A DNA stretch of 64,000 nt from Armatimonadota bacterium (GTDB lineage Bacteria; Armatimonadota; DTGP01; JAKQQT01). Under the pieces are notes generated by a model that saw nothing but the letters and a program-made list of their open reading frames with translations, had not been told where the DNA came from and made no database searches. This document shows, in pieces, positions 12,936 to 56,762 of the stretch. Location: contig DASXVS010000002.1 of NCBI GenBank assembly GCA_036504095.1, positions 1 to 64,000 of the forward strand. Reading direction: 5' to 3'. Every line of letters starts with the position of its first letter. Within the stretch, counting starts at the first letter, position 1. The position numbers and the translations under genes were made by a program.

Positions 12936-15524
12936 ATGCGCACGCCTGTTCCACCCGAGCCGCAACCCCTGTACGCCGCCGTCGTTGTGGAGACCGAGAC
13001 CTCCCGCATCCCGCAGCCGTTCACCTATCGCGTCCCGCCTGCGCTCGCCGGCGAGGTCGAGATCGGCGCGTCGGTGCTCGTGCCATTCGCCGGGCGGGAC
13101 TTACTGGGTTACATTATCGGCCTGTCCAACGCCGCGCCGGAAGGCCTGGCTGTCGTAAAGGACGTCATCGAGCGGGTCCGCATAGAGCCGCTATTCGATG
13201 CCGGCCTTATAGACGTCACGGACTGGATTTCCAAGTACTACCACTGCTCGGTCCGCGACGCCTTGCGCCCGTTGATCCCGCGGTTCATGACCAGCAGCCT
13301 CAAGACCATCGTCTCCGTCTCTCCACCGGTTCGAGAGATTCTCGCGTACTCCAAGGTGCTGAACCTCGGCCAGGAGGTCCAGTTGTTCTTCGAGCAGCAG
13401 GGCGAGACGGTGACGAACGTCCTGCAGGGCCTGCCGATGAAAGTGACGCCGAAGCAGAAGCAGGTTATGGAACTGCTGACCGCCAACCTGGACGGCGTGG
13501 AGATGGAGGACCTGAAGGAGCGCCTGAAATCGCAGCGCCTTAGCGACACGTTGAAGAAACTGAAGGATCGCGGCCTGGTGAACGTGGTGAAGAGCGTAGT
13601 GGCGCCGCAGGCCCAGCCCAAACGCCGCAAGGCCTATCGCTTCGTCCGGATGCCGGACGAAGAGGAAGCAAAATCCCTCAATATCACGGCCAAGCAGGCA
13701 AGGGTCCTCGCCGAACTGGAGAGGTTGCGCAAGCTGGACTTCGGGCGCGCAAAGCCCGTGTTGCAGCGCGAAATCCGTTGGCGGCTGGGTGTGAGCATGG
13801 TCCCGATGGATGCGTTGGTGGAGAAGGGCCTGCTGGAGGTCGTCTATGTGGAGGTCCGCCGCGACCCCTGGCCGTCATCCGGAAAAGCTTCGGCGCCTCG
13901 GCAGCTCACCCCGGACCAGGAGAACTCGTACCAGGCCATTTGTTCCAGCGTCGACCGCCGTCGAGGCGAGCGATTCCTCCTGCACGGCGTCACCGCGAGC
14001 GGTAAGACGGAGGTCTATCTCCAGAGTATCCAGACCGCACTGGACGCGCATCAGCAGGCCATCGTTCTGGTGCCGGAGATCTCGCTCACGGCGCAAGTGA
14101 TGGACATCTTCCAGGCGCGTTTCGGCGACCGGGTTGCCGTGCTTCACAGCGCGCTGAGCATCGGTGAGCGATACGACGAGTGGCGCCGCATCCGCAGCGG
14201 CGAGGCGAGCGTCATCGTGGGCGCGCGCTCGGGCGTGTTCGCGCCCGTGCCGAACCCCGGCCTCATCATCCTCGATGAGGAGCACGAGGGCAGCTACAAG
14301 CAGGACCGCGCGCCGCGCTACCACGCGCGGCACGTGGCGGCGAGGCGGGCACGAGTTTCCGGCGCCACGCTGGTCCTGGGCAGCGCCACCCCTTCGGTCG
14401 AGTCGTTCTATCTGGCGGATAAGGGCCGGATGAAGCTGCTGGAAATGCCGACGCGCATCGAAGACCGCCCGATGCCGCCGGTCCACATCATCGACCAGCG
14501 TGAGGAGTTCGCTGTTGGGCGCGGCCTCTTCTCCGGCCGACTCGAGGACGCCATCTGCCGCCGCCTCGCGCACAAGGAGCAGGTAATCCTCTTCCTGAAC
14601 CGCCGCGGCTACAGCTCCAGCATCCTCTGCCGCGATTGCGGGTTCACCGCCAAATGCCCCAATTGCAGCGTGTCGCTGACGTATCACGCGCCAAGCGGGT
14701 CGCGCCGACCCTATCTGCAGTGCCACCACTGCGACCACCACGAGCACGCGCCAACCATCTGCCCGCAATGCAGCGGCACGCGCATCAAGTATTTCGGGCT
14801 GGGCACGGAGCGCATCGAAATCGAGACGCAGAAGATGTTCCCGGACGCCCGCATCCTGCGCCTCGACCGCGATACCACCAGCCGCAAGGACGCCCACCGC
14901 CGCATCCTGACACGGTTCCGCAACGAAGATGCGGACATCCTCATCGGAACGCAGATGGTCGCGAAGGGCCTCGATTTTCCGCGCGTGACGCTGGTCGGGG
15001 TAGTGGCAGCGGACACCGGGCTGAACATGCCGGATTTCCGCGCCGCCGAGCGCTCGTTCCAACTGCTCACGCAGGTCGCCGGCCGCGCCGGCCGCGCCGA
15101 TCTGCCCGGCGAGGTCATCGTCCAGACCTTCAACCCGGACCACTACGCCATCCAGGCCGCCATCAAGCACGATTACCACCAGTTCTACCGCGAGGAGATC
15201 GTATTCCGCGAGGCGCTGAAATACCCGCCGTTTTCGTATCTGGCAAACGTCATCGCCACGACCGACAGCTACGACGGCGCCGGAACGGCAATCGACGCCG
15301 TCGCCGAGGCCGTCCGAACCGTAGCGGACCCCAACGTCGTCCAACTGTTGGGGCCCGTCGCCGCGCCGATCGCGCGGCTCCAGAACCGCCACCGCCGGCA
15401 CCTGCTGTTGAAGGCGCCGGACGCCGCCGTGTTGAGCGCCACACTGGAGGACGCCTTGAATCGCCTGGATGAAAGCGTGCTCGACACCCTGACCGTGGAC
15501 GTGGACCCGCAGAGCCTGTTGTAG
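12936..15524 (+). CDS. priA: Primosomal protein N' (replication restart helicase PriA)
   Basis: An 862-residue superfamily 2 helicase that restarts stalled replication forks. Residues 1-110 form the DNA 3'-end-binding domain (YAAVVVETETSRIPQPFTYRVP). A winged-helix region follows. Walker A is HGVTASGKTEVY (about 350-360) and the DEAH-like box is DEEH (about 446). The zinc-binding insert has CRDC..CPNC near 565-577 and CHHC..CPQC near 596-615. Helicase motifs V and VI are IGTQMVAKGLDFPRVTLV and QVAGRAGR. All parts are intact and the length is normal for the family. The 34-base repeat flanking the toxin-antitoxin pair begins at its stop codon. Confidence 0.96.
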   Translation: MRTPVPPEPQPLYAAVVVETETSRIPQPFTYRVPPALAGEVEIGASVLVPFAGRDLLGYIIGLSNAAPEGLAVVKDVIERVRIEPLFDAGLIDVTDWISKYYHCSVRDALRPLIPRFMTSSLKTIVSVSPPVREILAYSKVLNLGQEVQLFFEQQGETVTNVLQGLPMKVTPKQKQVMELLTANLDGVEMEDLKERLKSQRLSDTLKKLKDRGLVNVVKSVVAPQAQPKRRKAYRFVRMPDEEEAKSLNITAKQARVLAELERLRKLDFGRAKPVLQREIRWRLGVSMVPMDALVEKGLLEVVYVEVRRDPWPSSGKASAPRQLTPDQENSYQAICSSVDRRRGERFLLHGVTASGKTEVYLQSIQTALDAHQQAIVLVPEISLTAQVMDIFQARFGDRVAVLHSALSIGERYDEWRRIRSGEASVIVGARSGVFAPVPNPGLIILDEEHEGSYKQDRAPRYHARHVAARRARVSGATLVLGSATPSVESFYLADKGRMKLLEMPTRIEDRPMPPVHIIDQREEFAVGRGLFSGRLEDAICRRLAHKEQVILFLNRRGYSSSILCRDCGFTAKCPNCSVSLTYHAPSGSRRPYLQCHHCDHHEHAPTICPQCSGTRIKYFGLGTERIEIETQKMFPDARILRLDRDTTSRKDAHRRILTRFRNEDADILIGTQMVAKGLDFPRVTLVGVVAADTGLNMPDFRAAERSFQLLTQVAGRAGRADLPGEVIVQTFNPDHYAIQAAIKHDYHQFYREEIVFREALKYPPFSYLANVIATTDSYDGAGTAIDAVAEAVRTVADPNVVQLLGPVAAPIARLQNRHRRHLLLKAPDAAVLSATLEDALNRLDESVLDTLTVDVDPQSLL

Positions 15525-15557
15525 AACGATGAAGTAGGAACGATGAACGATGAATTC
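15524..15557. repeat. Left inverted repeat flanking the toxin-antitoxin pair
   Basis: The 34 bases contain repeated GAACGATGAA-type words and are the inverse of 16274-16307 at about 29 of 34 positions. The priA stop codon ends at its first base. See the matching right copy. Confidence 0.8.
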
Positions 15558-15567
15558 CCGGACGGAG

Positions 15568-15576
15568 TGGTACAAT
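15568..15576 (+). promoter_or_regulatory. Extended -10 promoter element for the toxin-antitoxin pair
   Basis: TGGTACAAT is close to the extended -10 consensus TGnTATAAT. It lies about 20 bases before the antitoxin start. No good -35 hexamer is visible, as is usual for extended -10 promoters. The same TGG-TATAAT form occurs upstream of the genes at 22846 and 48645. Confidence 0.45.
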
Positions 15577-15595
15577 GTGCGTGGGAGGGACGGCG

Positions 15596-15847
15596 ATGGT
15601 TGAAGCGCTACAGGAATTCGAGGGCACTTGGGAAGAGCTGGCGGAGCACGCCGAGGAATTCAACGGCCGGCGCCTGCGCGTTGTCGTGCTGCCGGAGCCG
15701 GAACCCGCAGGCGAAGGCGACGGGCTCACGATCGAGGAGAAGATCGCGGCCCTCTTCGCGGACGTGCCGGAGTCTGAGTGGGCAAAACTACCACCAGACT
15801 TGACCGATAACCTCGACCACTACATCTACGGCACACCAAAGCATTGA
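15596..15847 (+). CDS. Putative antitoxin of a PIN-domain toxin pair
   Basis: An 83-residue acidic protein beginning MVEALQEFEGTWEELAEHAEEF, a pattern seen in short antitoxin-like proteins encoded just upstream of PIN-domain toxins. GGGAGGG precedes the ATG at 15596. The C-terminal part (LTIEEKIAALFADVPESEW) is helical and probably wraps the toxin. The stop codon overlaps the TTG start of the toxin by four bases, which fits strict co-translation. Function is inferred mainly from position and size. Confidence 0.7.
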   Translation: MVEALQEFEGTWEELAEHAEEFNGRRLRVVVLPEPEPAGEGDGLTIEEKIAALFADVPESEWAKLPPDLTDNLDHYIYGTPKH

Positions 15848-16257
15848 ACACCGTCTTAGCGGATACACTTTATTGGATCGCTGCTAGCCGAGCGTCAGAC
15901 CCCTGGCATCGACCGGCGACGGCAGCCCGTCAGGCGCTTGGAGATGCACAGATCGTGACCACGGAGGAAGTGCTCACGGAATATCTCAATGCTATGTCCG
16001 GCGCGGGCGCCGCCCTTCGTTCGCGGGCAGCGCGAGCCGTCCGTGAGATATACTCCAGCCCGGCAATCCATGTCGTATCACAGTCGCAGCAGACCTTTTC
16101 AGACGGCCTCGACCTCTACGAACGACGTCCTGACAAGTCGTACAGCCTTACGGATTGCATTTCCATGAACGTAATGCGGGCTGAAGGCATCACAGATGTC
16201 TTAACGAATGACCGCCACTTCGCGCAAGAGGGCTTCAACGTCCTGATCGAGAGATAA
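15844..16257 (+). CDS. PIN-domain ribonuclease toxin (VapC-like)
   Basis: A 137-residue PIN-domain protein. The expected acidic residues are present in order: D near the N terminus (VLADTLYW), E in EEVLTEYL, D in SLTDCISM and D in LTNDRHF. VapC-type toxins cut tRNA or rRNA; the target here is unknown. The start is TTG overlapping the antitoxin stop (TTGA). The unit of the two genes is bounded by inverted repeats at 15524-15557 and 16274-16307. Confidence 0.85.
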   Translation: MNTVLADTLYWIAASRASDPWHRPATAARQALGDAQIVTTEEVLTEYLNAMSGAGAALRSRAARAVREIYSSPAIHVVSQSQQTFSDGLDLYERRPDKSYSLTDCISMNVMRAEGITDVLTNDRHFAQEGFNVLIER

Positions 16258-16273
16258 CCTCGCACCCAAATCC

Positions 16274-16307
16274 GCATTCATCGTTCATCGCTCCTCATTC
16301 ATCGTTT
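16274..16307. repeat. Right inverted repeat flanking the toxin-antitoxin pair
   Basis: Contains ATTCATCGTTCATCG and ATTCATCGTTT and pairs with 15524-15557. A CTGTCTCCTGGCTCCTG run follows at 16311-16327, resembling the tandem GTCTCCT tract at 17764-17806. Confidence 0.8.
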
Positions 16308-16331
16308 CCACTGTCTCCTGGCTCCTGATCA

Positions 16332-16745
16332 ATGCCAAAACTAACGCTAGAACTACCGATATACACTTTTCAGATCGACTTCTCCGGCCACGTGAGCAAC
16401 CTGGTCTACGTTCAGTGGCTGGAGGTCTGCCGCCTCACGCTGCTGGAAGCAGCCGGCATTCCGGTCCACAAGGCGGCTATGGACGGTGTGCTGCCGGTGC
16501 TCACCGACACCGTTATCGCGTACAAGGCCCCGCTTTACCTCGGTGACCGGATGTGCGCGGAATTCTGGGTTTCCGAGCTACGGGGTGCTTCCGCGTGGGT
16601 TGATTACCGAATATACAATCAGGGAGGCGTGTTGTGCGCCTCCGCCCGGCAGCGCGGGCTGTGGATTGACGCGGAGACGAAGCACCCCACGCGCATTTCC
16701 GCGGAGCAGCGCGCGCTGTACGCGCCATTCCTCGGCGAAGAGTGA
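16332..16745 (+). CDS. Acyl-CoA thioesterase-like hotdog protein (4HBT/YbgC type)
   Basis: A 137-residue hotdog-fold protein. The N-terminal YTFQIDFSGHVSNLVYVQWLE matches the YbgC/FadM pattern with the catalytic aspartate (D in QIDFSGHV) and the Y-x-x-W-E helix. It likely hydrolyses an acyl-CoA or acyl-ACP thioester in the cytoplasm. The substrate is unknown. The next gene starts six bases after its stop. Confidence 0.8.
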   Translation: MPKLTLELPIYTFQIDFSGHVSNLVYVQWLEVCRLTLLEAAGIPVHKAAMDGVLPVLTDTVIAYKAPLYLGDRMCAEFWVSELRGASAWVDYRIYNQGGVLCASARQRGLWIDAETKHPTRISAEQRALYAPFLGEE

Positions 16746-24676: not shown

Positions 24677-24717
24677 TGCCCACCCCCCTTTGCCACAAAA
24701 TGGGAAGTTGTGCCAGA

Positions 24718-24782
24718 AAGGGTCTGGGGTATAGGGTCTAGGGTTTAGCGCCCATACCCTAGACCCCATACCCAAGACCCTT
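24718..24782. repeat. Tandem-word hairpin in the ffh leader (CTAGGGT type)
   Basis: Left arm 24718-24748 and right arm 24752-24782 pair over 31 positions with about four mismatches and a three-base loop. Each arm is built from repeats of a GGGTCTAGGGTATA-like word. It ends 12 bases before the GTG start of ffh, leaving little room for a separate ribosome site. Confidence 0.85.
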
Positions 24783-24794
24783 TACCCTAGACCT

Positions 24795-27398: not shown

Positions 27399-27404
27399 GT
27401 CGAA

Positions 27405-27477
27405 GGGCTGAGGGCTGGGGGCCGAAGGCTGAGGTGGAATACCTCGGCCTCAGCCCTCAGCCCTCAGCTCTCAGCCC
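27405..27477. repeat. Tandem-word hairpin in the rimM leader (CCCTCAG type)
   Basis: Left arm 27405-27435 (GGGCTGAGGGCT words) and right arm 27441-27477 (CCTCAGCCCTCAG words) pair imperfectly with a five-base loop. The rimM ATG is four bases after the right arm, so the start region would be masked or the ribosome site lies within the repeat. Same word as the preceding gap. Confidence 0.85.
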
Positions 27478-27481
27478 TACC

Positions 27482-55196: not shown

Positions 55197-56681
55197 ATGG
55201 ACAAGTCGAATTCGGTTGACCTTGAGGCGATTGCGCGTCAGGCGATGTTGGAGCGCGGATTCCGCACCGATTTTCCCCAGAAGGTGACGAACGAGACGGA
55301 GCGCGCCGCCGAACCGGATTTCAGCGCCGTCTCCGTGAAGGACCTTACCGGACTCCTCTGGTCGTCCATCGACAACGATGACTCGCGCGATCTGGACCAG
55401 ATCGAATACGTAGACCTGAGCGATCCGAAGCGGCCGCGCCTCTACGTCGCGATAGCCAACGTGAACCATTTTGTGCCGATCGGCTCCGCCACCGATGATG
55501 CGGCAAAGCAGAACACCACCTCCATATACACCGGAGTGCTTACTTTTCCGATGCTGCCGGAGCGCCTGTCCACCGATCTGAGTTCGCTCAACGAGGATGC
55601 AAAACGCCTCGCAGTGGTCATCGAGATGGAGATTCAGGGCGACGCGGTCGCCCGTTCCACCGTCTACCCCGCGGTCGTCCAGAACAAGGCCCAACTCACG
55701 TACACGGGCGTTGCGACGTTTCTGGAGGCCCGGACCGGAGCGATTTCGCCGGTGACGGAGGGGGTGCTGTCGAAGATCAATGCGAACCCCGCGCTTGCGG
55801 ATCAGCTCCGCGCTCAGGACGGCATCGCGCAAGCGCTTCGCGAAGCGCGCTTCGCCGCCGGCGCACTGGATTTCCAGACGCCGGAACTGCGGCCCATCCT
55901 GAACCCCGACGGCAGCATCGAACTGTCCGGCCACGAGCAGAACCACGCCACCGAGCTCATCGAGGAGTTCATGATCGCGTCAAACAAATCCGTTGCGGCG
56001 TACCTGGAATCGAAAGGCCTGCCGTGCATCCAGCGCGTGGTGCAGACCCCCAAGAACTGGCCGCGCATCGTAGCGCTCGCCGACCAGCACGGCTGGAACC
56101 TGCCCGCGGCCCCCGATGGAGAGGCATTGCAGGCGTTCCTCGCCGATCAGAGGAAGAAAGACCCCGACCGGTTTCCGGACCTTTCGCTGGCGGTCATCAA
56201 ACTGCTGGGGCGCGGCGAGTATGTGGTAAAGGCTCCCGGCGAATCCGGAGTCGGGCATTTCGGCATCGGCGCCGCGAACTACCTCCACGGCAGCGCGGCA
56301 AACAGGCGGTATCCGGACCTTGGTGACCAGCGGATCCTCCTGGCGTCATTCGCCGGAAAGGGCGCCCCCTATTCGGCCGGCCAGCTGGAATCCCTCGCCG
56401 GATGGTGCACACAACGCGAAGGGGACGCCAAAAAGGTGGAGCGCCAGGTCCACAAGAGCATCGCGGCCGTCGCGCTCGCCCCGCGCATCGGCGAGGTTTT
56501 CCCGGGTTTCATCACCGGCGCATCGGACAAGGGTGTGTACGTACGAATCGCCAACCCGCCCGTGGAAGGCCGCGTTGAGGGCAAGGGCGGCGGCCTGGAG
56601 GTGGGGCATAAAGTCCGCGTTCGACTGACCCACACCGATCCGTACCGGGGTTACATCGACTTCGAAGTAGTGGACCGGTGA
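55197..56681 (+). CDS. RNB-domain ribonuclease (RNase II/R family) with S1 domain
   Basis: A 494-residue 3'-5' exoribonuclease-like protein. The RNB active site is [17 protein letters not shown], with the four aspartates intact, followed by [29 protein letters not shown] and [18 protein letters not shown]. The C-terminal [25 protein letters not shown] is an S1 domain. It lacks the N-terminal cold-shock domains of RNase R, so it is short. Its stop codon lies in the hairpin at 56674. Confidence 0.9.
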
Positions 56682-56762
56682 ACAGGAGATAGGGAAATGA
56701 GGAAATGGTGAGCATTAACCCGTTTCCCCATTTCCTCATTTCCCTATCTCCTGTTCACCGGT
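56674..56762. repeat. 35-bp perfect stem between convergent genes (GAAATGAG type)
   Basis: Arms 56674-56708 and 56728-56762 are exact complements over 35 bases with a 19-base loop. The left arm begins ACCGGTGAACAGG and includes the RNB stop codon; the right arm ends four bases before the stop of the convergent gene. The GAGGAAATG word is shared with 39160-39216. It can act as a bidirectional terminator. Confidence 0.93.

Follow-up and report, generated by a model that had tools for sequence, protein, structure and literature searches.

Two small genes follow priA in a 64,000-nucleotide stretch of an Armatimonadota bacterium genome (the window; positions 1 to 64,000 of contig DASXVS010000002.1). 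To judge by their sequences they are a VapBC-like toxin–antitoxin (TA) pair, and they are enclosed by inverted arms built of 7-bp tandem repeats. We consider it fairly probable, at roughly 60%, that the loop of a palindromic mobile element of the S23/IVS (intervening sequence) type houses the pair as a passenger, and that the two arms are the halves of one palindrome. S23 is the 23S-rRNA-intervening-sequence protein (IVP; PF05635), an Avd-like four-helix bundle. As the loop in the window holds a PIN-domain toxin and an antitoxin-like open reading frame (ORF) and no S23 gene, the window copy would be a TA-carrying relative rather than an S23 element proper. The S23 element with its heptad arms, which emerges from the same comparisons, is a larger finding than the arms of the TA pair.

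A preliminary description of this locus, made from the letters alone, had reported inverted copies matching at about 29 of 34 positions just outside the two genes, the left one starting at the priA stop codon. Measurement bears this out: the identity is 29/34 for 15524-15557 against the reverse complement of 16274-16307 and 28/31 for the core arms, and the left core arm begins at the base after the priA TAG (Table 1). The arm pair has an ungapped score of 23.5; when the full window was shuffled 20 times with a second-order Markov model, the best inverted pair with a gap of at most 900 scored 13.5 to 17.5. Both arms are degenerate tandem arrays of the heptad GAACGAT, and the window contains ten 7-periodic runs, as against 0, 0, 2, 0 and 0 in five shuffles. 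The C-terminus of priA ends at the same point as in relatives; hence the hairpin abuts priA without altering it. The toxin matches the PIN domain (PF01850, E 3.5e-7, exceeding the Pfam cut-off), scores under the NCBIfam VapC cut-offs, and has the conserved acidic positions present across eight aligned sequences; the antitoxin-like ORF has no matches in Pfam, NCBIfam or PADLOC. The two genes had rightly been called a pair, because at all seven of the closest homologous loci the toxin is immediately preceded by an antitoxin-like homologue. No plasmid homologues of the TA locus were found, and the closest paralogue of the pair in the host is distant (37%).

The GAACGAT arms are one of several classes of heptad hairpins scattered in the host genome (G000). 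The 31-nt left arm occurs there at 26 places with at most three mismatches, including one exact second copy, and its 19-nt core gives 64+47 matches with at most two mismatches; the reversed control gave 0 in both searches. The core of another class, AGCATYC, has 118+62 matches in the host. An intact GAACGAT-class hairpin at C41:41936-42009, with 31-nt arms, a 12-nt loop and a predicted fold of z −10.5, shows what the window element looks like when it holds no gene. Further gene-less hairpins lie in the window itself, as inverted arrays of the same build and of different units (Table 1). In a sample of 777 kb of non-N host DNA we counted 47 periodic palindromes with a gap of at most 150, a few of which are palindromes of other kinds, and five wider ones: two S23 elements, the window TA pair, one apparent TA remnant and one ambiguous case. 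The wide pairs L278 and L237 were considered as split hairpins and set aside, being in part separate arrays. At L280:8868-9363 in the host, AGCATCC arms surround one ORF with no Pfam match; its start resembles a PIN protein and its remainder an antitoxin, and we take it to be a possible TA remnant.

S23 genes are bracketed by arms of this kind in the host and well beyond it. A score of at least 15 was taken to mark a gene bracketed by an inverted arm pair. By this measure six of all eight host PF05635 genes are bracketed (scores 16 to 28), a seventh scores 14.5, and the one at C19 has only background-level arms (11). None of the 12 host PIN genes other than the window's is bracketed (9 to 13.5). 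Six of the 119 ORFs of at most 900 bp in a first host sample score at least 15, and four of these six are S23 genes or the window pair. Among same-phylum relatives, 23 of 29 S23 loci score at least 15, one of them (L152) with high controls; no strong arms were seen at L143, L145, L147 and L151, nor at the contig-end loci L138 and L139. The same holds across many phyla: among the best 80 S23 loci of the collection in named genomes (L153–L232), 60 score at least 15, compared with 4 of 421 shifted controls, and among the loci with full flanks the proportion is 57/75, compared with 1/225 for shuffled flanks. The best period in these 57 armed loci is 7 in 49 and 8 in six. The repeat unit varies by locus (58 distinct units in the 64 named loci scoring at least 14), and the length from arm to arm is 438-499 nt in the host, with a median of 477 in the named set. 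Plasmid copies behave alike, six of seven scoring at least 15 and the seventh 14.5. In the open-access literature searched, we found no paper linking S23 genes outside rRNA to heptad arms.

Arms and S23 gene insert into new sites as a unit, sometimes with a 5-bp target duplication, as is shown on cyanobacterial plasmids by comparison with nearly identical ones whose sites are empty. One such unit lies in a conjugative-plasmid operon of Trichormus variabilis ATCC 29413 (L355) and Scytonema NIES-4073 (L363). In four related plasmids (L360, L361, L362, L369) the counterpart of this site is empty, with flanks 97–98% alike, a 13-bp gap and no repeat; GTAAT, which is single in the empty site, flanks the unit on both sides in the filled one. 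Nostoc C052 (L364) has, at a site of the same type, the left arm and a truncated gene. The S23 unit of Nostoc ATCC 53789 at L359 corresponds to empty sites without repeats in C052 (L370, L372), with TTCTA duplicated relative to L370, and at an L359-type site in Nostoc N6 (L371) the S23 unit is interrupted by a nested palindrome. A second S23 unit of ATCC 53789 (L373) likewise has empty counterparts without repeats and merely a 3-bp overlap. The empty site in PCC 7002 (L367) that corresponds to the unit of PCC 7003 (L353) has no repeat, and the comparison of the L357 unit with L374 shows neither repeat nor duplication. Given the 3-bp overlap at L373 and the lack of any at L357, the 5-bp duplication is not general. 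The L356 unit is matched by same-class arms with no S23 gene in L365 and by a site with no hairpin in L366, and the place of the L358 unit is occupied in L375 by a different palindrome. In the phylum of the window, G004 has an S23 unit within a coding gene whose G043 counterpart (72%) is plain. At the site of the G020 unit each of four same-genus relatives has a hairpin of its own, so this site alone is silent on the order of arrival; one of the four, G101, has the same outer arms around another hairpin. Some units stand in CRISPR operons, that of PCC 7003 (L353:2983-3339) between cas10 and cmr3 and that of Anabaena sp. 90 (L358:2483-2851), with a left array of about 230 bp, between cas6 and cas4.

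Gene-less hairpins were matched to S23 arms by assigning to each gene-less palindrome the best-matching arm among 105 sets of S23 arms. The host's own S23 arm was best for 24 of 50 palindromes in G000 (3.8 expected by share), the genome's own arm for 2 of 8 in G019 (0.3 expected) and for 4 of 11 in G005 (0.7 expected), in counts that exclude rows of period 6 as well as the two S23 elements, whose cognate rows are not independent of one another, and which for G000 include the TA hairpin among the 50 and weak non-heptad palindromes as two of the wins. The TA arms match the host S23 element at C46:45376 best (26, compared with 15 for the best foreign arm). Elsewhere on the same contig, at C46:49228-49410 (L084), four GAACGAT arms stand in direct orientation 43-66 bp apart.

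The element family that we propose would have a short loop between arms of about 30 nt, each a tandem array of degenerate 7-bp (sometimes 8-bp) units. Full-length members, of about 440-500 bp overall, would have an S23/IVP gene in the loop, and the gene-less copies scattered in the genome are probably derivatives of them; S23 may move or maintain the hairpins. At the window locus the anatomy suggests that the TA pair most likely split the loop of a gene-less copy, one half of that loop remaining on each side. The pair may since have kept itself there by addiction, and the arms are predicted to fold in the RNA around the pair as in the IVS of 23S rRNA, where they would presumably be processed. 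The TA pair is flanked by TCCCGGAC beside the left arm and AAATCCGC beside the right arm, and several gene-less GAACGAT-class hairpins have CCGGA...TCCGG loops, for example GCCGGACCCGG or TTCGGAATCCGG. Palindromes nested within hairpin loops recur, and the same-family genome G001 (L044:349-2351) has a VapBC pair together with a 207-aa ORF enclosed by three nested inverted repeats, of which the outermost consists of GGTGTCA heptads. The flanks that resemble loop halves, the nested palindromes and the nested VapBC pair of G001 together favour the view that the pair entered a gene-less hairpin at its loop.

The preliminary description had offered two interpretations, a hairpin split by insertion of the pair and a small cassette moved by a partner acting on the repeats. 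The first is supported in part, a hairpin holding the pair agreeing with the intact C41 hairpin, whose arms are 31 bp, and with the loop-half flanks; that the arms are private to the pair does not stand. Both observations that the description had named as refuting its account were made. The pair occurs without the repeats, arms being present at 0/7 of the closest loci and at 1/19 PIN homologues fetched from relatives, and the repeats are much commoner than the pair, in the 26 near-matches of the 31-nt arm and the 64+47 of the 19-nt core. The arms therefore do not delimit a cassette specific to this TA pair, and that version of the idea was rejected. As for the partner, S23 is a candidate, one that may have acted on the window copy.

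Several observations weigh against our reading of the window copy and of its kin. The resemblance to loop halves is short, and that loop occurs in no more than about half of the gene-less hairpins displayed. No target duplication is visible around the TA copy. Nor did we find an empty site: among 11 relatives read, none carries a heptad hairpin downstream of priA or, so far as inspected, the priA–thioesterase gap, no same-genus genome was found, and the same-family genome has just a priA fragment. The host has seven Y1_Tnp (RAYT-family) matches, which might supply another mover; by coordinates, none is near the places of the 31-nt arm. In both cases of clear duplication the site had been free of hairpins before the S23 unit inserted, and so insertion into a hairpin is not the origin of the S23 copies there. 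For several gene-less classes (GTTCCGA, for example) no S23 partner turned up in the host, and in small samples (ten genomes with S23 and ten without, 40 kb each, one of 27 kb) gene-less hairpin density did not track S23 presence (2/10 with S23 vs 1/10 without).

Some of the evidence given above would also suit a mobile cassette composed of the TA pair and its arms, on which an S23 protein from elsewhere (that of C46:45376, for example) or a RAYT acts in trans through the heptads. An S23 element of the same class exists in the same genome, S23 units move with their arms, the VapBC pair of the sole same-family genome is likewise within inverted arms, in three nested pairs that also enclose another ORF, and the wide pair at L280 holds an apparent TA remnant. 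We nonetheless think such a cassette unlikely: this TA pair with arms exists in a single copy whose nearest paralogue in the host is the distant one, the closest homologous pairs elsewhere are without arms, and the TA copy lacks a target duplication.

We give still less weight to the view that the arms were selected in place, without mobility, as a hairpin regulating the TA transcript, whether as an RNase III site, a terminator or a stability element. The arms do pair in the predicted minimum-energy fold of the 806-nt RNA spanning 15515-16320 (z −3.4), the intact C41 hairpin is predicted to be very stable, and the upstream gene is co-directional with S23 in 43 of the 53 named loci with callable neighbors (both neighbors in 32/53). 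RNase III processing of the Coxiella IVS in vitro is also on record in the relevant part of PMC4990558. Against this, the same arms are dispersed as hairpins without genes, and homologous TA pairs do without the arms. A comparably low probability attaches to chance, that is, to two independent dispersed repeats having landed on either side of the pair. The repeats are common enough, and the wide pairs L278 and L237 did turn out to be parts of separate arrays; but the TA arms agree in length and register at 28/31, like intact single hairpins, both are within 19 nt of the pair, and only five periodic pairs with a gap above 150 occurred in all the host DNA sampled.

A TA pair lodged in the loop of a palindromic element, the reading we prefer, can be set beside several known systems. 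One is the Coxiella burnetii 23S rRNA IVS, for which the sections of PMC4990558 concerned describe an S23 ORF in the loop of a 28-bp inverted-repeat stem, 428-444 nt in total, with tandem GACAGAT heptads just upstream of the ORF; the IVS is termed selfish there, and both the origin and the function of 23S rRNA IVSs and of the S23 protein are called unclear. The elements described here resemble that IVS, as presented in those sections, in having an ORF in the loop of a long inverted-repeat stem, in their tandem heptads and in overall length. They differ in lying between or within protein genes rather than in rRNA and in having locus-specific arms, and the window copy differs further in carrying a TA pair instead of S23. 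REP/REPIN sequences with their RAYT genes (REPtrons) share with our elements, in the account excerpted from PMC6006769, a gene flanked by palindromes and, dispersed through the same genome, further palindromes of that sequence class without a gene, each gene copy having a class of its own. Unlike the REPtrons of that account, the GAACGAT hairpins displayed show no consistent GT[AG]G foot, the arms are 7-bp tandem arrays, and the gene is S23, not a HuH transposase; REPtrons apparently do not insert with their gene as a unit, whereas the arms and S23 do. The heptameric repeats of Xanthomonas, Nostoc and Beggiatoaceae are likewise intergenic 7-bp arrays, sometimes in inverted pairs in Xanthomonas, but, so far as the relevant parts of PMC4692102 and PMC4679880 go, they have one consensus heptad per lineage, are mostly direct arrays and have no link to S23 or TA genes. 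Acinetobacter pdif (XerC/XerD) modules, as outlined in part of PMC6449649, resemble the window copy in that adaptive genes are bounded by inverted sites of about 28 bp; those sites have a fixed recombination-site sequence, whereas the arms here are repeat arrays whose sequence depends on the locus. The gene pair itself follows the plan of VapBC type II systems, a small antitoxin followed by an overlapping PIN-domain toxin, and differs in that the antitoxin fits no curated family and the toxin falls below the NCBI VapC cut-offs.

Should S23 genes in general prove to lie within heptad palindromes that insert as units and duplicate a short target, they would constitute a widespread mobile element with no recognised transposase. 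Many intergenic heptad hairpins would then have an origin, and the Avd-like fold would have a testable home; the presence of the TA pair in the loop suggests that small genes of other kinds can be carried by the element. A broader proposal, which we advance only tentatively and hold to be somewhat doubtful, is that S23/IVP genes are part of a class of mobile palindromes found throughout the bacteria. Their protein, alone or with host enzymes, would insert hairpins of self-made short tandem repeats, gene-less copies would follow in trans, small selfish genes of other kinds, TA pairs among them, could occupy the loop and travel as cargo, and the rRNA IVS would be the special case of a copy that landed in a 23S helix.

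Table 1. Genes, arms and gene-less hairpins of the window
Feature	Position	Strand	Remarks
priA (left neighbor)	12936..15524	+	TAG stop 15522-15524
Left hairpin arm	15525..15555	+	Degenerate GAACGAT heptads; begins 1 base past priA stop
Putative left loop remnant, TCCCGGAC...	15556..15574	+	Like loop start of same-class gene-less hairpins
Antitoxin-like ORF, 90 aa	15575..15847	+	
PIN-domain (VapC-like) toxin ORF, 137 aa	15844..16257	+	TTG start; overlaps antitoxin stop
Putative right loop remnant, ...AAATCCGC	16258..16275	+	Like loop end of same-class gene-less hairpins
Right hairpin arm	16276..16306	-	28/31 complementary to left arm
Thioesterase (right neighbor)	16332..16745	+	PF13279
Gene-less heptad hairpin, AGGGTCT class	24717..24783		Best S23 arm match is the host's own
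Gene-less heptad hairpin, AGGGCTG class	27404..27478		Best S23 arm match foreign by one point (18 vs 17)
Gene-less hairpin, 8-bp units, GGAAATGA class	39160..39216		
Gene-less heptad hairpin, AGCATYC class	42208..42276		
Gene-less hairpin, 8-bp units	56674..56762		

Palindromes of 8-bp units (GGAAATGA, CACAAAGA), of which the window has two, also occur at L089:9332. The CACAAAGA/CACAGAGA kind recurs in G000, G019 and G005, with no S23 partner found for it. In G002, priA (L342:1495-4206) seems to carry an insert that is in frame and resembles a repeat (SLGRW..., NDPTTQRP...); it may be a palindrome lodged in the coding sequence. At L278:7152-7678 a HicA-type toxin (PF07927, E 1.3e-7) and a small upstream ORF adjoin AGGGCTG arrays. 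AGCATYC arrays recur in a single orientation at C25:86604-89500 and C8:2972-3270 of the host, spaced about 85-105 bp apart in C8 and in part of C25.

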